Origin: an uncultured Bacteroidia bacterium
GTDB lineage: Bacteria; Bacteroidota; Bacteroidia; Bacteroidales; F082
Assembly (NCBI GenBank): GCA_902770835.1
Contig: CACXUM010000010.1
Span: 42,366-106,365, forward strand
Direction of reading: 5' to 3'
DNA length: 64,000 nt
In this document: positions 6,188 to 64,000 of the stretch, piece after piece
Position numbering within the stretch: the first letter of the stretch is position 1
Layout of the letters: every line of letters starts with the position of its first letter
The notes under the pieces: model-generated
Database searches by the model: none
What the model was told of the DNA's origin: nothing
The model's input: the letters and a program-made list of their open reading frames with translations, nothing else
Translations under genes and position numbers: made by a program

Positions 6188-7528
6188 TTACATCGGCTTG
6201 AACACAAACACAGGGTTTTCAAACGCCGTTGGCTGGAGATACATCAGCATATAAACAGGCCAATAGTCGACACGGCCTTGCACTTCATAATTGCCGTTTG
6301 AGAACACTATAGCCGAGCGAATGTCGTATTCCGCATTGGCCATCACATTGCTCAAAGCATTATGCCGCTTGTAATCCTTGCCCGACTTGATTTCGATAGG
6401 CAAAATCCGACCATCGTGTTCAACCACAAAATCCAATTCGCCTTGTTTCTTGCTATTGAAATAATAGAGCGTATATCCGTGAGTGTGAAGTTCTTGCGCC
6501 GCAAAATTCTCAAAAATCGCACCGAAATTAATGTTCGTCTCGCCAATGATGATTTGTTGCTGGAACTGCATAGAATACAGGTATGCCAATAGACCCACAT
6601 CGTTGAGAAAGAGTTTGAACAAGCTGCGTTGTTCGTTGAGTTTCAAGGGCAAACGCGGCTCCTCAACATTGTAGGTAGGCAAAGCGACACCCGCATCGGC
6701 CAACCAAAGGAAACTGTTTTTGTAACGCTCAAACTTGGCCTTCTCGTGCAGCGATTTCAAGATGAAACGCTTGTTTTTGGCGTTCAACTCCGAGGGTATC
6801 ATATCAAATATATCCTTGATATAGAGGCGATTGTCGGGATCATATTTTGCAATGTCCTTGCGATACAAGTTGACGATGTTCTCCTGCTCTTGCCGTACCA
6901 TTTGCAGATTGTTGGTTTCGATGTATTTCGTCACCACCGCTGGCAAACCGCCCACAACGAGATAAAGCCGCAACAATTCAAGCATTTTTTCGTGAACAAC
7001 TTTGTCGACGGGTTGTTTGCTTTCGAAACATTTCTGAAGATGTCCCAACACCTCATCACTCATTCCAACAGCTTCCGAAAACTCCTCAAAATCAAGAGGA
7101 TTCATTTCCTTTTCGGCCAAATACCCAACGGGAACACTGCGCAAATCGTTCAACTCAACGCCTAAAAGCGAACCACTCATCACATAGCGATAACTGCCCT
7201 CGTCGACAAGGAATTTGATGGAAGTGACAATTTCAGGACACTCTTGTACCTCGTCGAAAAAAACCAGCGTTTTGCGAGGAACCAATTGGGTTTCAGCAAG
7301 TGCCGAAAGGCGGAGCAATGTCGCCTTGGCATCGTGTGGTTGTTCAAAAACCGATTTCAATTTCGGGTTTTCAATGAAATTCAGTTCCACAAAATGCTCG
7401 AAACACTCCTTGCCGACCTTACGGATTGCAAAGGTTTTCCCAACTTGACGCGCACCCGAAACCAAAAGTGCTTTCTTGTCATTTTCAAAGAATGAACGTA
7501 AATAACTGTATATCTTTCTATTAAGCAT
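6188..7528 (-). CDS. AAA family ATPase with DUF4143 domain
   Basis: A 446-residue protein from the ATG at 7528 (MLNRKIYSYLRSFF). The longer frame to 7627 translates a repeat array and is rejected as coding. The Walker A segment SGARQVGKTF and Walker B-like LVFFDEVQE mark an AAA_14-type ATPase. The C-terminal half (FENFAAQELHTHGYTLYYFNSKKQGELDFVVEHDGRILPIEIKSGKDYKRHNAL) is DUF4143 and looks like a PD-(D/E)XK-type fold, with E-D-E-K residues in GELDFVVE and IEIKSGK. These proteins are very common in gut Bacteroidales, often in many copies, and their function is unknown. The upstream region holds three repeats spaced by exactly 33 bp. Confidence 0.88.
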   Translation of the reverse strand: MLNRKIYSYLRSFFENDKKALLVSGARQVGKTFAIRKVGKECFEHFVELNFIENPKLKSVFEQPHDAKATLLRLSALAETQLVPRKTLVFFDEVQECPEIVTSIKFLVDEGSYRYVMSGSLLGVELNDLRSVPVGYLAEKEMNPLDFEEFSEAVGMSDEVLGHLQKCFESKQPVDKVVHEKMLELLRLYLVVGGLPAVVTKYIETNNLQMVRQEQENIVNLYRKDIAKYDPDNRLYIKDIFDMIPSELNAKNKRFILKSLHEKAKFERYKNSFLWLADAGVALPTYNVEEPRLPLKLNEQRSLFKLFLNDVGLLAYLYSMQFQQQIIIGETNINFGAIFENFAAQELHTHGYTLYYFNSKKQGELDFVVEHDGRILPIEIKSGKDYKRHNALSNVMANAEYDIRSAIVFSNGNYEVQGRVDYWPVYMLMYLQPTAFENPVFVFKPM

Positions 7529-25685: not shown

Positions 25686-25834
25686 CAAAAACCGTATGGA
25701 CAAAATCCAAAGCCCGATTATTTCAAATCTTTGATTTACAATCATCTATAATTTTCAAAGCCAAAAATAATATGGACAAATCGCCTTGGGGTCTCAACAA
25801 GGTGGTTTTTGGTTTGGTTTTTGCGGTAGTTTTG
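25686..25834 (+). promoter_or_regulatory. Paired-motif promoter element, copy A
   Basis: Two copies of CAAAAAYMRTATGGACAAA start at 25686 and 25762, exactly 76 bp apart. They are followed by CTTGGGGTCTCAACAAGGTG and a -7 box TAGTTTTG at 25827-25834. The same layout, including the 76-bp spacing, occurs at 58617-58764 ahead of a T9SS cargo gene. It drives the lipoprotein gene at 25860. Confidence 0.7.
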
Positions 25835-25859
25835 CCGGACATTTTTAAATTTATATGTT

Positions 25860-26642
25860 ATGAAAACAACAATGAAATTAATGCTGATGCTTGTAGTAGT
25901 GGCAGGTATGGCAACTTTCACCTCGTGTAAGAAAGAAAAACAAGAAAACCCAGAACAAGAGGATTTAGCCCCTAACGGAATCACGGTGTATCCATCTGCC
26001 TCAGAATACCATTACGATGGCGATGGCATCAACCACCCCTTTGTTGACCTCGGCTTGCCGAGCGGAACGCTTTGGGCAACCCAAAATGTGGGCGCGGACA
26101 GCACAAATGTTTTCGGCTGGTTTATCGCTTGGGGCGAAACCGAACCGAAGTCCGTTTACGATTGGAGCACCTACAAATATTGCGAAGGCAGCCAATTGAA
26201 ACTGACCAAGTATAGCCACGATGCCAGCCCTGATTTCCTCAAGTTTGGCTATGAGGGCTATTGCGACACGCTTTCGGTCTTGCTTCCCTGCGATGATGCC
26301 GCCACGGTCAACTGGGGCAGCGACTGGCGCACACCTACTTATGGTGAATGGGTGGAACTGGCGGAAAATTGTACTGCTGCCTATATAAATCAGGACAGCG
26401 TGTGTGGAATTCTTTACACAGGTCCCAATGGCAATACGCTATTCCTGCCGGGAACAGGTAAATATTTTGATAGTAATTATACGGGTTGGGGCTATGGCGA
26501 TTATTGGTCGAGCAGTCTTCCCACGCTTTGGGTGGACCATGCATGGCGGTTTGGTTTTATCATTCACGGTACCGACTACTTTATGTATGAAGAATCACGT
26601 CAGTTTGGCATTCCTGTTCGTCCGGTCCGTGCTTCGCGATGA
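25860..26642 (+). CDS. FISUMP-like domain lipoprotein
   Basis: A 260-residue protein with a signal peptide and lipobox-like end (MKTTMKLMLMLVVVAGMATFTSC). The mature part contains FVDLGLPSGTLWATQNVGADS, FGWFIAWGETEPKSVYDWSTYKYC and a C-terminal YWSSSLPTLWVDHAWRFGF...GIPVRPVRA. This is the pattern of the Fibrobacter succinogenes major paralogous domain type found in many Bacteroidales surface lipoproteins (fold related to C-type-lectin/sulfatase-modifying folds). Ligand unknown. It has its own conserved promoter element and is probably monocistronic. Confidence 0.82.
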   Translation: MKTTMKLMLMLVVVAGMATFTSCKKEKQENPEQEDLAPNGITVYPSASEYHYDGDGINHPFVDLGLPSGTLWATQNVGADSTNVFGWFIAWGETEPKSVYDWSTYKYCEGSQLKLTKYSHDASPDFLKFGYEGYCDTLSVLLPCDDAATVNWGSDWRTPTYGEWVELAENCTAAYINQDSVCGILYTGPNGNTLFLPGTGKYFDSNYTGWGYGDYWSSSLPTLWVDHAWRFGFIIHGTDYFMYEESRQFGIPVRPVRASR

Positions 26643-57713: not shown

Positions 57714-58657
57714 ATTATTTGAAACAAGGTTCGAAAGTGGCCATTGCGGCACCTGCACGTTGTGTTACGCCTGAAGAAATGGCTTTTGCCATACATTGGC
57801 TTAAAGAGCAGGGGTTTGTTCCCATTTATGATGACAGGCTTTTCGCTGTTCATCATATCTTTGCCGGGACGGATGATTTTCGGGCTGCCGTGTTTCAGGA
57901 ATATCTTGACAATGAGGAAATTAAAGCCATTTGGCTTGCCCGAGGCGGCTATGGCAGCATCCGCATTATCGACAAATTAGACTTCACCAAGTTTTTGCAA
58001 CATCCGAAATGGATTGCAGGCTTCAGCGACAGCACGGTCATTCATGGCAAGTTGAGCAGTTTGGGCGTTCCGTCGCTTCATTCGCCCATGCCTTTTTACT
58101 TTGCGAACAAAACAGAGGTAGCCAAACAGTCATTATTTAACGCATTGACGGGCAAATGTTTGCATTATGAATTTCCCGCGAATCCGTTGAATCGTTTAGG
58201 AAAAATGGAAGGTGAAATCGTTGGAGGAAACTTGTCTGTCCTAATGGGCATGAATGGCTCCGACATTTTTCCCGAGACGGACGGAAAAATCCTGTTCATT
58301 GAGGAAGTTGACGAGTATATCTACCACATTGACAGGATGATGCACTGTTTGAAACGTGCTGGAAAACTCGCCCACCTGAAAGGCCTCATTGTGGGCGGCC
58401 TGACCCAAATCAAAGACAATACGCATCCCTTTGGCCAAAGTGTTGAGGAAGTGATTGCTGAGGCTGTTTCTGAATACGATTATCCTGTTTGCTTCGGTTT
58501 CCCTGCTGGGCATTTTGATGATAATCGTGCGGTGTTTTTCGGGATAAACTCTCGATTGATGGTAACGGATGAAAAGGTGGTTTTTTGGAATGATGGAACA
58601 TTTTATTCTCTTAAACCAAAAATAGTATGGACAAAACAAAAAAGCGATTTTGTATAA
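57710..58657 (+). CDS. LD-carboxypeptidase (peptidase S66)
   Basis: A 315-residue enzyme. The N terminus GSKVAIAAPARCVTPEEMAFAIHWLKEQGF, the ARGGYGSIRIIDKLD segment and WIAGFSDSTVIHGKL, with the catalytic Ser, match the S66 family. The C-terminal Glu/His pair lies in ILFIEEVDEYIYHIDRM and SVEEVIAEAVSEYDYPVCFGFPAGHFDDNRAVFFG. It removes the terminal D-Ala from L,D-linked tetrapeptides in peptidoglycan recycling. The last residues (about KIVWTKQKSDFV) are encoded within a dispersed promoter-type element, so the C terminus may be altered from the ancestral one. Confidence 0.92.
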   Translation: MNYLKQGSKVAIAAPARCVTPEEMAFAIHWLKEQGFVPIYDDRLFAVHHIFAGTDDFRAAVFQEYLDNEEIKAIWLARGGYGSIRIIDKLDFTKFLQHPKWIAGFSDSTVIHGKLSSLGVPSLHSPMPFYFANKTEVAKQSLFNALTGKCLHYEFPANPLNRLGKMEGEIVGGNLSVLMGMNGSDIFPETDGKILFIEEVDEYIYHIDRMMHCLKRAGKLAHLKGLIVGGLTQIKDNTHPFGQSVEEVIAEAVSEYDYPVCFGFPAGHFDDNRAVFFGINSRLMVTDEKVVFWNDGTFYSLKPKIVWTKQKSDFV

Positions 58658-58764
58658 ATCAATGAATAACAAGATGTTGAAAATTTAAAAACTAAAAATC
58701 ATAGGGACAAAACTGTTTTGGGGTTTGACAAGTGGTGTTTTTGCGGATTTTTGTTATAATTTTG
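58617..58764 (+). promoter_or_regulatory. Paired-motif promoter element, copy B
   Basis: CAAAAATAGTATGGACAAA (58617) and TAAAAATCATAGGGACAAA (58693) are again 76 bp apart. They are followed by TTTTGGGGTTTGACAAGTGG and a -7 box TAATTTTG at 58757-58764. The layout matches copy A (25686-25834) and drives the T9SS gene at 58793. Confidence 0.7.
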
Positions 58765-58792
58765 CGGAAACGAATTTTAAAACTATAACGTC

Positions 58793-60544
58793 ATGAAAAA
58801 AATTAGACTTTACACCCTGCTTGCGCTGCTGATGGCGGGCGGGGTGGTGCAAGCCCAAATCCGTATCGACAAGCAACAATGCTTTGGGGGATTTGGCCAA
58901 GAATTTTGTGTTGGAATGGCTTTGGAGGATGACTATATCTTGCTGGTAGGTAATACAGCAAGGGACTATGCAGGGACGGGGCACGTTACCCAAAACTGTA
59001 ACGAAAGCAGACCCGGCGATCCTTGTTGGATTATGAAAATAGACCATGATTATGAAATTATTGACAATTGGTGCTATGGGGACATGGGCTTTTCGGATGG
59101 CGTGGGGTTCATCTTTAAAATTGGCGACAAAAACGAATACTATCTGACTGGATCAGGATTTCCCGACATTTGCGATAATAATGCACAGAACTTAAACATA
59201 GTAGCGAAAAGAATTAATGCTGACGGTGAGGTGATTTGGACCAGAGGATTCGGCACGCAAATGGGGCTTAGCTATGACCATGTCGCTAACGGAGAATTGG
59301 CTCATGACGGAGGCCTGCTTTGTCATGCCAATTACCATTCGGGAGGATGTGACATCAGCCACTATTATGGCAATGGGGATGGCTGGATTGTAGCCTTGGA
59401 CAGCCTTGGAAACATGAATTGGGAAACCACACTTGGTACATTGGGGCAAGATAATTTGTACCACGTGGAAAGAAGTTCCCGAGGAGGGTATCTTGTAACC
59501 ATGACAGCAGATCCCGTGGGAAACAATTATGGAAATCTCAGCCCTTGTAGCAGTTCAATCCCCATGAATATTAACGGCCTGATTGTCAAGTTGGATGATG
59601 TTGGGAATGTGGAGTGGAATGCCTGTTATGGAAGCACACGTGAAAATCCTGAAGAGGGTTGTGGTTTTAATACCGTGCAAGAACTTGAAGATGGCGGATA
59701 CATTTGCTGCGGCGATGCATACGGCGAAACTGGCGATTTGGCAGGCAGTGGATGGCATTATGGTACATTACACAACATTCCTAATGGCGACCTCACCACT
59801 GACGCATGGCTGTTGCGATTGGATGAAAACAGGAACGTCATCTGGAGCAAGTGTTATGGCGGTACTAATTATGATTTTTCTTTTAAGGTATTTCCAATGA
59901 AGGATGGGGGCTTCATGGTGTTTGGTGCCACATATTCAAACAATGGTGATGTGGCCAGTGCTGCGCATCTTAACCTTGCCGATGAGAATGATAGTGCTGG
60001 GTGGGTGTTCCGTACCGATGCCAATGGTAATTTATTATGGGAGCGTTGCATTGGGGCTGTTGGCAACGGACAAACGTATTTTAAGGATGTCGTTCAGCAC
60101 AATGACAGGGAGTACACGATAGCCGGTATTGTGCGCTGTGCATCTTCGGCTATTTATTCGGGAGACATTGATTGCTCAAATTGCGCTGTCACACACAACC
60201 CTGATGACCCATTTGGCGGACGTTCACTGGATTATTGGATTCTCCACATCACCGACACGGTGGACTACACCACATTGCAGGTGCCGGAACGGCCCATGCC
60301 AAAAGAAGAGGCTGTAGTGGAGGTTTATCCCAACCCGACGAACAACACGGTTTGCGTGGTGCTGCCCAACGAGGCCGAGGCCACGGAAATGGAACTCATC
60401 AACATGAGCGGCCAGGTGGTGGCCACAAAGACCTTCGGCGGCAAGGGTGGTTGGATGGAGATGGGCGACTTGCCCAAAGGGATGTACATGCTGAGAATCC
60501 GCAATGCGGAAGTGTGCCTCACACGGAAAGTGCTGAGGGAATGA
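58793..60544 (+). CDS. T9SS type A sorting domain protein (paralogue of 50443 gene)
   Basis: A 583-residue secreted protein. The signal peptide is MKKIRLYTLLALLMAGGVVQAQ, and the mature part starts IRIDKQQCFGGFGQEFCV, parallel to the paralogue at 50443. Repeated WxxCYGxxxxxx segments (VEWNACYGSTRENPEEG, IWSKCYGGTNYDF, LLWERCIGA) suggest the same propeller-like repeats. The C-terminal sorting domain is VVEVYPNPTNNTVCVVLPNE...MELINMSGQVVATK...GDLPKGMYMLRIRNAEVCLTRKVLRE. It has its own promoter (copy B element) and is separated by 48 bases from the next cargo gene. Confidence 0.9.
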   Translation: MKKIRLYTLLALLMAGGVVQAQIRIDKQQCFGGFGQEFCVGMALEDDYILLVGNTARDYAGTGHVTQNCNESRPGDPCWIMKIDHDYEIIDNWCYGDMGFSDGVGFIFKIGDKNEYYLTGSGFPDICDNNAQNLNIVAKRINADGEVIWTRGFGTQMGLSYDHVANGELAHDGGLLCHANYHSGGCDISHYYGNGDGWIVALDSLGNMNWETTLGTLGQDNLYHVERSSRGGYLVTMTADPVGNNYGNLSPCSSSIPMNINGLIVKLDDVGNVEWNACYGSTRENPEEGCGFNTVQELEDGGYICCGDAYGETGDLAGSGWHYGTLHNIPNGDLTTDAWLLRLDENRNVIWSKCYGGTNYDFSFKVFPMKDGGFMVFGATYSNNGDVASAAHLNLADENDSAGWVFRTDANGNLLWERCIGAVGNGQTYFKDVVQHNDREYTIAGIVRCASSAIYSGDIDCSNCAVTHNPDDPFGGRSLDYWILHITDTVDYTTLQVPERPMPKEEAVVEVYPNPTNNTVCVVLPNEAEATEMELINMSGQVVATKTFGGKGGWMEMGDLPKGMYMLRIRNAEVCLTRKVLRE

Positions 60545-60592: not shown

Positions 60593-61396
60593 ATGAAGAA
60601 ACTATCATTTATCCTTGCCGCATTGCTGGTATGCGGAGCGATGCAAGCACAAACCAACAGTGAGACTTGTTGGGACTTTGAAAATGATTTTGCAGCGGGC
60701 CATCTTTTGGAATGGACTACCATTGATGCAGACGGCGACGGCCACGACTGGCAGATTTACCCGACCGGTGGCATGGGCTACTCTGGATCCGATGGCATGG
60801 TGGTGTCATATTCAAAAGACATCGCCACTGGTGACTCTCTAACGCCAAGCAATTTTCTCATCTCGCCACGCATTCGGTTAGGCGATTGGGGAATTGTTTC
60901 ATTTTGGGCTTGCGCCTTGGACACAGCCAACCCTGCCGAACACATTGGAGTTTTCGTTTCAACGACCACCAACGATGACCCGATGGCTTTCACCATGATG
61001 CAACATTGGACATTGTACAACCAGGGTAACTGGTACAATTATATGTGTGATTTGTCCCAATATTGTGGCCAAGAGGTTTATATCGCCATCCGACACTTTT
61101 ATTGCAGCGGAAACTGTGCCGTTTGCTTTGATGACTTCTACGTTGATGGAGAGTGCGTGGGAGTCGAAGAAGTAGCGGAAAGCATTGGCGTTTATCCCAA
61201 TCCGGCAAGGGACAGGGTTGTTGTTGGAGGCATGGAGGCTGTTGAGGTAAAGGTTTACAATACTTCAGGGCAGATGGTGAAATGTGTGCGGGGGACGAAT
61301 GAGATTGATGTTGAGGGATTGGCGGAAGGGGTTTATTTGGTGAGGATTATGGATGCAGATGGAAAAGTTTACACGAACAAAATCACGAAACGATGA
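60593..61396 (+). CDS. T9SS cargo with choice-of-anchor J-like domain
   Basis: A 267-residue secreted protein with signal peptide MKKLSFILAALLVCGAMQAQ. The mature start ETCWDFENDFAAGHLLEWTTIDADGDGHDWQIYP and FLISPRIRLGDWGIVSFWACALD are the choice-of-anchor J (jelly-roll, cleaved adhesin-type) pattern. The type A sorting domain begins about IGVYPNPARDRVVVGG and ends NEIDVEGLAEGVYLVRIMDADGKVYTNKITKR. It overlaps the next cargo gene by 4 bases. The DNA of the last 200 bases is nearly repeated at the end of the following gene. Confidence 0.88.
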   Translation: MKKLSFILAALLVCGAMQAQTNSETCWDFENDFAAGHLLEWTTIDADGDGHDWQIYPTGGMGYSGSDGMVVSYSKDIATGDSLTPSNFLISPRIRLGDWGIVSFWACALDTANPAEHIGVFVSTTTNDDPMAFTMMQHWTLYNQGNWYNYMCDLSQYCGQEVYIAIRHFYCSGNCAVCFDDFYVDGECVGVEEVAESIGVYPNPARDRVVVGGMEAVEVKVYNTSGQMVKCVRGTNEIDVEGLAEGVYLVRIMDADGKVYTNKITKR

Positions 61397-61412
61397 AAAA
61401 CATAAGATTCAT
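61192..61412 (+). repeat. T9SS cargo junction repeat, copy 1 (sorting domain + ATGA + signal-peptide start)
   Basis: The repeat starts at TTATCCCAAT, exactly 201 bases before the ATG at 61393, and continues into the first codons of the next gene (MKNIRFIA). Bases from 61286 onward are nearly identical to copy 2 (62755 onward). Confidence 0.8.
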
Positions 61413-62865
61413 TGCTTTGGCTGCCCTTTTGATGCTTGGGGCGAGGATGCAGGCGCAAAACAAAGACGACCCATGGCCACATTATATTGAAGAATATCCA
61501 TTGTGGATTGATTCTGTCACAGTGCAGCCTAATGGCTTTGTGATGGATGCCAACGGCAATGTGGAAATCTCCACGCCTGAAGGTTTGGCGTGGTTGATAA
61601 GCGCAGCGAACGGGCTGAACGGTTGCGAGCCTGACAATTTCGATGGGCGCACCGTGAGACTCACTTGCGACATCGACCTTGACGCTGGTGCGCATCGGCG
61701 CTTTTCGCCCATCGGCAGCCGCGAACATCCCTTTATGGGTACTTTTGATGGTGGCGGTCATACAATCGATGGCTTGTATGTCGCGTATAATTCCCCAGAG
61801 TATGATCCCGCTTTTGATATAGGCATGTTCGGATGTCTCAAACATGGAACAGTGAAAGATTTTGTTGTCAATTCAGGCTTGTTTGTTACAAGCCATCACC
61901 TCAACGGCGGAGAGTTTTTTAACGGATGTTTGGTGGGTATTTCCGATTCACTCTCTGTGGTGGATGGTTGCATTGTAAAAATAAGGGCTGGAGGGGATGA
62001 CCAATGTAGCATGATTGTTGGATTGAACAGAAACTCCATTGTAAGGAATTGCGCCTATTGCTATGGTGACAATGACTATTTGGTTTCAAGGAACGGAGGA
62101 GGTATTGTATATCACAACCTTTCGGAAGGCGGGTATGCCGACGCAGAGGTGGTTAATTGCTTCTTCTATGGAAGCGTTAAAGGTTCGTATAGCGCCCAGT
62201 CGTTTGGCGGGATTGTCTGCCTCAACGAATCAGATAGTCAGGGCGGCAGAGCCGTGGTAAAGAATTGCTTTGCCGAAGTCCTTGCCAGGTTGAATGGTTT
62301 TATGGAATACAAAGGTTCCGTAGTGGGTTACAACATGAAAGGTTGCGTGGTGGAAAACTGCTATGGCCATATTTGGAACAACTACGGACAGGTAGGGCTT
62401 TTGGGCAACAATCAGGGGTTGGCCTCGGAATGTGTGGAGTTTCTTCCTACTGGTCCGTGCCAATTGGAAACAAGCGTGATGGTAGGCTCCACTTCTACTG
62501 ACATCATGTTGGATGCCCTCAACGCTTGGGTGGAAATGCAAGAGGATCCTTCTATTTACAAACGGTGGAAGCCTATTTATGAGCCTTACTATATCCCAAT
62601 GTTTGAGGACGGCATTGAAGCTGTTGACGAAAACAATGGGGCTGCTGATTTATTGTCGGTTTATCCCAATCCTGCCAATGGGGTTGTTCGGATTGAGGGT
62701 GTTGAGGCTGAAGAAGTGCAGGTTTACAACGCTCTCGGGCAGTTGGTGAAGACTGTGCGGGGGACGAATGAGATTGATTTGAGCGGATTGGCGGAAGGGG
62801 TTTATTTGGTGAGGATTGCGGATGCTGAAGGTAAAGTTTACACGAACAAAATCACGAAACGATGA
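61393..62865 (+). CDS. T9SS cargo with GLUG-like beta-helix segments
   Basis: A 490-residue secreted protein (MKNIRFIALAALLMLGARMQAQ). An adhesin-like region has STPEGLAWLISAANGLNG, FSPIGSREHPFMGTFDGGGHTIDGLYV and repeated short strands with VVNCFFYGSVKG and VVKNCFAEVLAR, a GLUG/right-handed beta-helix pattern. The sorting domain ends DLSGLAEGVYLVRIADAEGKVYTNKITKR. Unlike its neighbours it has no jelly-roll. It is translationally coupled to the cargo genes on both sides (ATGA overlaps). Confidence 0.85.
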   Translation: MKNIRFIALAALLMLGARMQAQNKDDPWPHYIEEYPLWIDSVTVQPNGFVMDANGNVEISTPEGLAWLISAANGLNGCEPDNFDGRTVRLTCDIDLDAGAHRRFSPIGSREHPFMGTFDGGGHTIDGLYVAYNSPEYDPAFDIGMFGCLKHGTVKDFVVNSGLFVTSHHLNGGEFFNGCLVGISDSLSVVDGCIVKIRAGGDDQCSMIVGLNRNSIVRNCAYCYGDNDYLVSRNGGGIVYHNLSEGGYADAEVVNCFFYGSVKGSYSAQSFGGIVCLNESDSQGGRAVVKNCFAEVLARLNGFMEYKGSVVGYNMKGCVVENCYGHIWNNYGQVGLLGNNQGLASECVEFLPTGPCQLETSVMVGSTSTDIMLDALNAWVEMQEDPSIYKRWKPIYEPYYIPMFEDGIEAVDENNGAADLLSVYPNPANGVVRIEGVEAEEVQVYNALGQLVKTVRGTNEIDLSGLAEGVYLVRIADAEGKVYTNKITKR

Positions 62866-62881
62866 AAAACATTAGACTTAT
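62661..62881 (+). repeat. T9SS cargo junction repeat, copy 2
   Basis: It starts at TTATCCCAAT 201 bases before the ATG at 62862, the same geometry as copy 1. Identity is highest from 62755 through the ATGA overlap into MKNIRLIA. Confidence 0.8.
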
Positions 62882-64000
62882 TGCTATGGTTGGGCTTGGC
62901 CTTATGGCGAGCAACCTTTTTGCACAAGTTCCCGGCAGATGGGAAGACCCGATGAAGGTGGATGCCTCTGTAATCAGCAACCAAACGGTCAGGGTTCAGT
63001 GGGAAAGCCAATTCGTCGATCATTTTGAAACGGGTGATTTCAGCCTTTTCGACTGGAACAATGCCGTTTCCGATTATCCTTGGGAGATTACCGACAGCCA
63101 GTCCTTTGACGGTTCCTTCTCCATGCGGGCGTCGAATGCGGGCGTCGACAATTCGACTTCGGCCATACAAATCACGATGTCCATCCCACGTGATTGCGAG
63201 ATGTGGTTTTATGGCAAAATCTCCTCGGAAAACAACTGGGATTTGGGTAAGTTCTATATCGATGGCGAGTGCATGACGAGCCAGTCGGGACAAGGCTCAT
63301 GGCACGAATTTCGGTATGATGTCACGGAAGGCGAACACACTTTTAAGTGGGAGTATGGCAAAGACGGTGAAGAGAGTGCCCTGGACGACACCTGGTATAT
63401 CGACTGCATCCATTTTGTTTACGATGGCTCTTTTTATCAGCCGCAAAGTTGGTTGTATTACGGGTATGACGGTTACCGTGGCAGCATGGGTGACGGCGGC
63501 AATGCCTGTGAATGGGCCATGAAATGGACTGAGCAGACGAGTGGGGTCATTACGGATGTTGCCCTCTACAGCGATGCTGAAGGACTGACGAGCGGCACCT
63601 ATACCTGTACCATATACTTGGGTGGTGAGGATGCGCCTGGGAATGCGGTGTCGTCAATAACCGTGGATGTGACGCCAGGACTGGGCGATTATCAGTATTT
63701 TGAATTGGATGACTGGGTGGAGGTTGGTTTAGAGGCAGGAAGCATCTGGATGGTATGGAGTACCGACGAAGGCCACGAGACACCGGCTCCCTACGGCAAT
63801 GGTGGTTCGAGCGACGATGGCACTTGGTGGAAAACCGAAGACGGATGGCAGCAAACCGACCTTAGTGGTGGCGCTTGGCTGATGCAGATGCTTATGTATT
63901 ATGACAGCGGTTTTCCACACTTCAAGGTGTATCGCGCCCTTTGCGACGGCCAGGACATGGAGTTGATTGCAAGAAAGCTGGAAGTCAATTCCTACCTTGA
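62862..64000 (+). CDS. T9SS-type secreted protein with jelly-roll-like domain, cut by the window end
   Basis: The frame opens at ATG 62862 inside the previous stop and stays open for 379 codons to the edge of the window. It has a signal peptide (MKNIRLIAMVGLGLMASNLFAQ). A jelly-roll-like region follows (FVDHFETGDFSLFDWNNAVSDYPWEITDSQSFDGSFSMRASNAG, IDGECMTSQSG, WYIDCIHFVYDG), then Trp/Asp/Gly-rich beta sequence. The sorting domain, if present, lies beyond the window. It belongs to the cargo run by position, signal peptide and overlap; its full length is unknown. Confidence 0.82.
   Translation, partial: MKNIRLIAMVGLGLMASNLFAQVPGRWEDPMKVDASVISNQTVRVQWESQFVDHFETGDFSLFDWNNAVSDYPWEITDSQSFDGSFSMRASNAGVDNSTSAIQITMSIPRDCEMWFYGKISSENNWDLGKFYIDGECMTSQSGQGSWHEFRYDVTEGEHTFKWEYGKDGEESALDDTWYIDCIHFVYDGSFYQPQSWLYYGYDGYRGSMGDGGNACEWAMKWTEQTSGVITDVALYSDAEGLTSGTYTCTIYLGGEDAPGNAVSSITVDVTPGLGDYQYFELDDWVEVGLEAGSIWMVWSTDEGHETPAPYGNGGSSDDGTWWKTEDGWQQTDLSGGAWLMQMLMYYDSGFPHFKVYRALCDGQDMELIARKLEVNSYL

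Follow-up and report, generated by a model that had tools for sequence, protein, structure and literature searches.

A paired-box promoter element associated with a putative membrane regulator family and secreted-protein operons in one genus of uncultured Bacteroidales

Primary-sigma promoters of Bacteroidota are built from a -33 TTTG/TTG element and a -7 TAnnTTTG element, and type A cargo of the T9SS carries TIGR04183 tails. Operon-like clusters of T9SS-secreted proteins or enzymes are described for rumen Bacteroidetes in the excerpted text of PMC5831590, and the BT3442 family (NF053779; a TPR multi-domain protein of Bacteroides) appears without a stated regulatory role in that of PMC2954219. 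In the titles and opening abstract lines returned by open-access literature searches, neither the element nor the regulator family (R) described here is named.

The element shares with primary-sigma promoters its -7 sequence TAnnTTTGC, present in 28 of 29 R promoters that were collected without selecting for it, and often a TTGACA 15 bp upstream; unlike the consensus, it has two phased boxes about 76 bp apart with a central palindrome and, in the window copies and the window genome's copies at one chromosomal site (alpha), a TTGACA-like box one turn further upstream. An earlier note on this DNA had called the element unexplained by known Bacteroidota promoters, a description that suits the paired upstream boxes, which are new, but not the core (TTGACA ... 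TAnnTTTGC), which is ordinary. The predicted C-terminal fold of R may be like that of LuxR/NarL-type domains (LiaR, VraR, RcsB, ComA; TM up to 0.75 over ~60 columns), but R has no receiver domain, carries a TPR/transmembrane part and matches these regulators at Foldseek E-values ≥ 1.0 only. R also aligns along most of the BT3442 family profile, but scores far under its 940-bit cut-off. As in the clusters excerpted in PMC5831590, the genes concerned form operon-like T9SS clusters in rumen Bacteroidetes; unlike those clusters as described there, they share a common signal peptide and a promoter element and lie at fixed sites with exchanged passengers. The combination is unusual, and its component kinds (activator-dependent promoter, one-component regulator, T9SS cargo operon) are known. 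The promoter-associated element is real, and very probably belongs to a circuit with an autoregulated membrane regulator family and secreted-protein operons. Judged from sequence, it is probably an activator-dependent promoter whose boxes are most likely bound by R, with R activating its own gene and driving the secreted-protein operons.

The paired-box element in the window and across the genus

The window (the whole 64,000-nucleotide stretch analysed) lies in a 3.26 Mb, 86%-complete assembly, here genome G000. Exact copies of the motif CAAAAAYMRTATGGACAAA start at 25686, 25762 and 58617, and a copy with 2 mismatches starts at 58693; at ≤3 mismatches the window holds 4 matches against 0.25 expected, a number reached in 0 of 100 shuffles. 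The repeat is therefore real, and its conserved core is TAKGGACAA, not ATGGACAAA as first proposed. Cores lie at 25695 and 25771 (copy A) and at 58626 and 58702 (copy B); the earlier note's spacing of 76 bp is exact in both, and no other TAKGGACA pair is spaced 76 bp on either strand of the window. The relaxed paired element occurred in none of 300 Markov-1 random windows of the same composition.

Element A, on the forward strand, comprises box 1 with its A-rich lead (25686-25704, core TATGGACAA at 25695-25703), a central TTGATTTACAA forming a partial palindrome (25731-25741; conserved positions +36 to +46 of the 69-element profile below), box 2 with its A-rich lead (25762-25780, core TATGGACAA at 25771-25779), a TCAACA that is a degenerate TTGACA box (25794-25799) and a -7 box TAGTTTTGC (25827-25835). 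Element B, on the same strand, comprises box 1 (58617-58635, core TATGGACAA at 58626-58634), a central ATGAATAACAA with a weaker palindrome (58662-58672), box 2 (58693-58711, core TAGGGACAA at 58702-58710), a TTGACA box (58725-58730) and a -7 box TAATTTTGC (58757-58765). The TTGA-N4-CAA palindrome between the motifs is partly conserved and weak in copy B, and the CTTGGGGT-CAACAAG segment shared by A and B contains the TTGACA-like box. A -7 box after the motif pair, as the earlier note had it, is present in both copies, at 48 bp from the GGACA of box 2 in A and 47 bp in B; the distance from the second motif to the start codon, put at about 100 bp, measures 89 bp in A (25771 to 25860) and 91 bp in B (58702 to 58793).

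Behind element A lies a forward-strand gene for a 260-aa putative lipoprotein (25860-26642; sub-threshold Lcl_C match), in which no PF18962/TIGR04183 sorting domain scores above cut-off. Element B heads a forward-strand array: gene 1 (58793-60544) encodes a common signal peptide (MKKIRLYTLLALLMAGG), a variable passenger and a T9SS type A sorting tail that passes the C-terminal sorting domain cut-offs (PF18962/TIGR04183; 42.0 bits, cut-off 27, and 47.7 bits, cut-off 23), gene 2 (60593-61396) and gene 3 (61393-62865, overlapping gene 2 by 4 nt) have T9SS tails, and gene 4 (62862-64000) continues past the window end. The genes behind A and B look like members of one regulon that includes its likely regulator.

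To map the element, the pattern TAKGGACAA-N67-TAKGGACAA-N46-TANNTTTGC was searched with ≤3 mismatches in 100 genomes. It gave 69 elements in 30 genomes, all among the 60 members of one Bacteroidales genus (window genome included), and none in 40 genomes from 40 other families; a backward control pattern gave 1 match, in one of those 40. We take the genus to be, probably, F082 in GTDB usage, which a 'bacterium F082' record among the matches fits. In an even order-wide draw of 393 genomes (the same 40 included), 3 matched, all from this genus, of which 5 members had been drawn; none of the 388 non-genus genomes did, and the backward control again gave 1 match. A stricter exact pattern against 84,980 species genomes, a collection that may leave out the window's own genome, returned 70 stretches, whose titles all name a Bacteroidales or Bacteroidia assembly or 'bacterium F082', and several of the named ones come from ruminants or ruminant-gut assemblies. 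The strict exact pattern was found in no viral contig, and a virus-borne element was rejected on that count. The shuffles, the random windows and the restriction of copies to the genus (0/40 and 0/388 outside it) rule out a chance repeat.

The window genome holds at least 8 copies (A, B, one each on contigs C5, C17, C36 and C45, and two on C43), with small departures: the second distance is 1 bp longer in A, and the box spacing is 75 in C17. The earlier proposal that a regulatory element is dispersed in front of genes for exported proteins is borne out by the many copies across this genome and its relatives, nearly all of which lie on the same strand as, and just 5' of, a start codon; two of the 69 (L118, L123) have no clear gene.

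Conservation of the boxes, the -7 box and the spacing in these 69 elements is partly built in by the fixed-spacing pattern. Outside the pattern, an ungapped profile shows conserved A-tracts before both boxes, an A at +30 in 69/69, the TTGA-N4-CAA palindrome at +36 to +46, and a TTGACA at +110, its canonical place, with each of G, A, C and A in 54/69; in many elements it lies 15 bp 5' of the -7 box. In the two C43 (alpha) copies and in window A and B, the TTGACA-like box is 11 bp further upstream or degenerate, and despite this 11-bp shift the distance from box 2 to the -7 box stays fixed or within 1 bp. As a separate observation, copies with a TTGACA-like box at -33 and copies with it 11 bp (one turn) upstream (window copies compared with L041, L043 and L044) form two promoter types, which may differ in basal activity. 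In some R promoters (L176:1201-1222, L224) box 1 lies within a near-perfect palindrome (TAGGGACAAAATTTTGTCCCTA in L176), which suggests a dimeric site.

If transcription starts ~7 nt after the -7 box, the boxes would be centered near -62 and -138. Since the paired-box element lies upstream of the -7 box, it is probably outside the transcript that starts there; for this reason, and because an Rfam scan of the window at the gathering threshold gave two tRNAs only and no RNA element, a known RNA element was dropped as a candidate.

The putative regulator family R and its candidate boxes

By mechanical classing, the first gene behind the element falls into class R in 31 of the 69 cases, into class S in 22 and into a remainder of 16, which includes truncated or mis-started R or S members (L113, L115, L116, L143, L151, L166) and the two elements without a clear gene. 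Class S proteins have the common signal peptide (MKATRIYTLLALLLMAGG and variants), and many have a C-terminal T9SS type A tail; the tail is not visible in all 22, owing to contig ends or a frame change before it. The remainder also includes putative outer-membrane barrels and BspA-like LRR proteins; T9SS-type tails are present in three of these LRR proteins, which come from different loci.

Class R proteins are ~490 aa long and combine TPRs with a single hydrophobic helix and a coiled coil; their C-terminus is very conserved. The cysteine at position 20 is invariant in 23 aligned sequences and lies at a lipobox-like site (the names lipobox and, below, groEL were assigned by sequence reading). 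The C-terminal domain was predicted at pLDDT 84.8, and many of its best PDB matches by Foldseek are LuxR-type DNA-binding domains; isolated LiaR, VraR and ComA domains align with TM 0.67-0.75 by target length and rmsd 1.9-2.7, and isolated RcsB aligns poorly (rmsd 5.4). The best Foldseek E-value is 0.81, with the top three matches belonging to an unrelated enzyme, and Pfam gave no HTH match in the two R proteins scanned. Against NF053779, R residues 71-485 align with positions 139-557 of 563, at 62.4 and 73.9 bits for two R proteins (50.1 for a divergent paralog).

The link between R and the element was then examined from the protein side, with limits of 55-85 bp between boxes and 30-60 bp to the -7 box. 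Upstream DNA was available for 29 R genes, and 28 of them have GGACA boxes 74-77 bp apart and 46-49 bp to TAnnTTTGC (47 bp in 23/28). All 16 first-round loci, which include six of the seven R-positive genomes without a strict match and three sister-class R genes, have boxes 74-77 bp apart and exactly 47 bp from the second GGACA to the -7 box; in the seventh such genome (G019), R starts at the contig end. The second round, of sister-class R genes, gave the element at 12 of 13 loci (74-75 bp and 46-49 bp), and none was found upstream of the sister R of G041 (L372). Left out of the 29 were L370 (G014), L377 (G032), L385 (G019) and L211 (G019), whose sequence starts within R or only just ahead of it.

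Of the 60 genus genomes, 37 have main-class R, among them all 30 with a strict element; in G003, G007 and G058 the match is partial, and in G057 the gene that follows the element is truncated. The other 23 have neither main-class R nor the strict pattern, and some still carry other R classes: G015, G039, G049, G052 and G054 combine sister-class R with a relaxed element, so strict-negative genomes do not all lack the system; G041 has a sister R, a divergent R follows a GGACA element in G025, and in G014 a fragment of R stands at the start of a contig. Nineteen genus genomes have elements before non-R genes, and main-class R is present in every one of them (Fisher's exact test, p = 9.6e-6; 2.4e-5 counting the G014 fragment and 0.0013 counting all sister and divergent R, each with kinship ignored), an association that is partly circular at genome level. 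DNA encoding the common signal peptide was found in 25 of the 60 genus genomes and once in the 40 others; 23 of the 25 have main-class R, and the remaining two, G028 and G038, are 58% and 73% complete.

Divergent R paralogs have a changed HTH (...NLQTNSYARRKSRIKQEKM versus ...DTQTDSYYKRKTRIKQMKM in the main class). They lie directly behind a T9SS-tail gene with an ATGA-fashion overlap at 5 of 7 loci, or 6 of 8 with the intermediate-type R of G025, and in their operons the same layout is built from ATAGACAA boxes. AGACAA boxes 75-76 bp apart, with 47 bp to the -7 box, occur at 14 of 28 divergent-paralog loci (8 first looked at and 20 fetched as a test, 9 of the 20 being positive), with one more box 12 bp upstream at 13 of the 14; the layout occurred in 0 of 560 random sequences. 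At 13 of the 28, neither AGACAA nor GGACA boxes were present in the stretches scanned, and the AGACAA element was absent from the 16 loci scanned for it in the second round above. Only G025 among the 28 has a GGACA element (in the order element, T9SS gene, R), and its HTH has the FYKRK pattern, as in the GGACA class. Across 60 genomes (36 of the genus, 24 others), the 75-bp AGACAA form was found at 13 places in 11 genomes, with 0 for the control; the sole place outside the genus is a 3-mismatch match. Second AGACAA-type elements are present at L342 (G012:C52) and at G021:C25:80273, one in each genome, and the divergent paralog may have further targets.

The box sequence thus changes with the R paralog while the geometry is constant, which makes R the best candidate to bind the boxes, as far as sequence can tell, and is the strongest single argument for R as their probable reader. 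Regulators are often themselves targets of other regulators, and a true regulatory promoter whose boxes are bound by another DNA-binding protein, with R merely one of its targets, would fit that general pattern. We consider this unlikely: the covariation of box and paralog under a kept geometry would follow from R reading the box, R itself is associated with T9SS-tail genes, and every strict-element genome has main-class R.

Chromosomal sites and exchanged passengers

Class S genes are arranged in arrays of signal peptide, passenger and tail, often with 4-nt overlaps and usually with one element at the head. Site alpha has groEL on its upstream side; downstream, as read in G003, come a possible M23 peptidase (below cut-offs) and RseP, PorP, PorK, PorL and PorM, and the array there (L227, G003:C62) adjoins genes of the T9SS machine. 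Seven genomes have the upstream flank and promoter of this site in common, but five unrelated passengers occur in its first gene, which in G042 and G030 is cut by the contig end. Between G000 and G048, a 4.8 kb flank is 93.6% identical and the passengers are unrelated. Where passengers differ at alpha, beta and B, similarity breaks off +209 to +238 from box 1, close to the 3' end of the sequence for the signal peptide. Clustering of 82 genes (19 of the 22 loci examined) gave 33 passenger clusters, several of which occupy two or more apparent sites. G056 and G021 (groEL identity 94.5% over the 547 bp compared) carry one passenger at different sites, with 99.8% identity over 663 bp and a diverging tail. 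Gene 4 of site B is 97.6% identical over 1142 bp to the same-site gene of G056; this is only slightly above the groEL identity (96.7% over 547 bp) and is therefore weak evidence for recent transfer.

At the position orthologous to site A, G031 and G012 have other genes than the 25860 gene: in G031 similarity stops at the -7 box and resumes 1.8-2.3 kb on, with other genes between, and in G012 it stops 94 bp after the box 1 start. In L233 (G000:C43:14000-32119, reverse-complemented), the two element-led genes of site alpha, ending at 7494 and 9692, both stop early in the T9SS tail with identical last residues (AVGEDCAGDE), as if by a shared frame change in a G-rich stretch; assembly error, decay or phase variation could account for it. 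The MAG G029 has two groEL-element contigs (G029:C42, G029:C149) with different passengers; an allele swap within a population was set aside here, the 95% identity of the groEL parts pointing to probably mixed species in the bin.

The earlier note had also suggested a mobile promoter cassette, that is, a dispersed or duplicated MITE-like repeat recruited to positions in front of genes for exported proteins. In its favor, genomes hold several copies, and site alpha of the window genome has two tandem copies 3 kb apart; one beta-type allele is 94-99% identical at several apparent sites, so the element does get copied. As the main reading, however, a mobile cassette is very improbable, because at the well-compared orthologous sites the element keeps its chromosomal flank (alpha, beta, B) and the protein is swapped, elements at the same site have a mean identity of 0.88 versus 0.62 at different sites (exceptions being eps at 0.55 and part of A at 0.64-0.66), conservation in the profile is limited to the boxes, palindrome and core promoter, with no conserved ends beyond them, and the strict pattern is absent from viral contigs. 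The paired-box element is thus neither a chance repeat nor, for the most part, a mobile promoter. We give next to no credence to the element being primarily a recombination site for surface-protein cassette exchange (integron- or shufflon-like) instead of a promoter, since, for all that passengers differ between species at one site and similarity at site A ends at or before the -7 box, similarity at alpha, beta and B crosses the element, the passenger that is nearly identical at two sites differs in its T9SS tail, and R genes, at which no such exchange was observed, have the element in front of them as well.

The proposed circuit and its meaning

Seen directly in the sequences are the element with its geometry and gene context, its link to R genes and the covariation of box and paralog; the circuit built on them is our proposal. 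In the R-dependent promoter that we favor, a normal Bacteroidota core (TTGACA or a weak form, with TAnnTTTGC) would stand behind two direct-repeat TAKGGACAA boxes, centered near -62 and -138, and a small palindrome would lie roughly midway between them. R would be a one-component regulator family with a lipoprotein-like N-terminus, a TPR domain that is probably periplasmic and one transmembrane helix, followed on the inner side by a coiled coil and a cytoplasmic LuxR/NarL-type helix-turn-helix; this topology, like the existence of a signal to which R responds, we infer from the sequences. R bound at about -62 would contact RNA polymerase, and R at -138 would be recruited through DNA looping or bending, the presumed outcome being activation rather than repression. 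By activating its own gene, R would form a self-reinforcing circuit, and it would also activate operons whose products have a common signal peptide, mostly a T9SS tail, and exchangeable passengers. R paralogs with a changed HTH would use the same geometry with an AGACAA box, each for an operon of its own.

Beyond single promoters, we put forward tentatively, at somewhat less than even confidence, a genus-wide system of surface diversification. Several fixed chromosomal sites, one of them between groEL and RseP-PorP-PorK-PorL-PorM (genes of the secretion machine or next to it), would each start with an R-controlled paired-box promoter and a constant signal peptide. They would receive cassettes of signal peptide, passenger and tail that recombine in their repeated ends across sites and species, and paralogs with their own boxes would share the one geometry.

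The findings tie a promoter architecture, a regulator family and variable secreted proteins together in uncultured rumen bacteria, a group for which we know of no genetic system. Since two box sequences occur in one geometry (boxes ~75-76 bp apart, the -7 box 47 bp further on), the specificity of regulator for DNA can readily be tested. If cassettes are indeed exchanged, gut Bacteroidales would have a way to change their surface under one constant control circuit.
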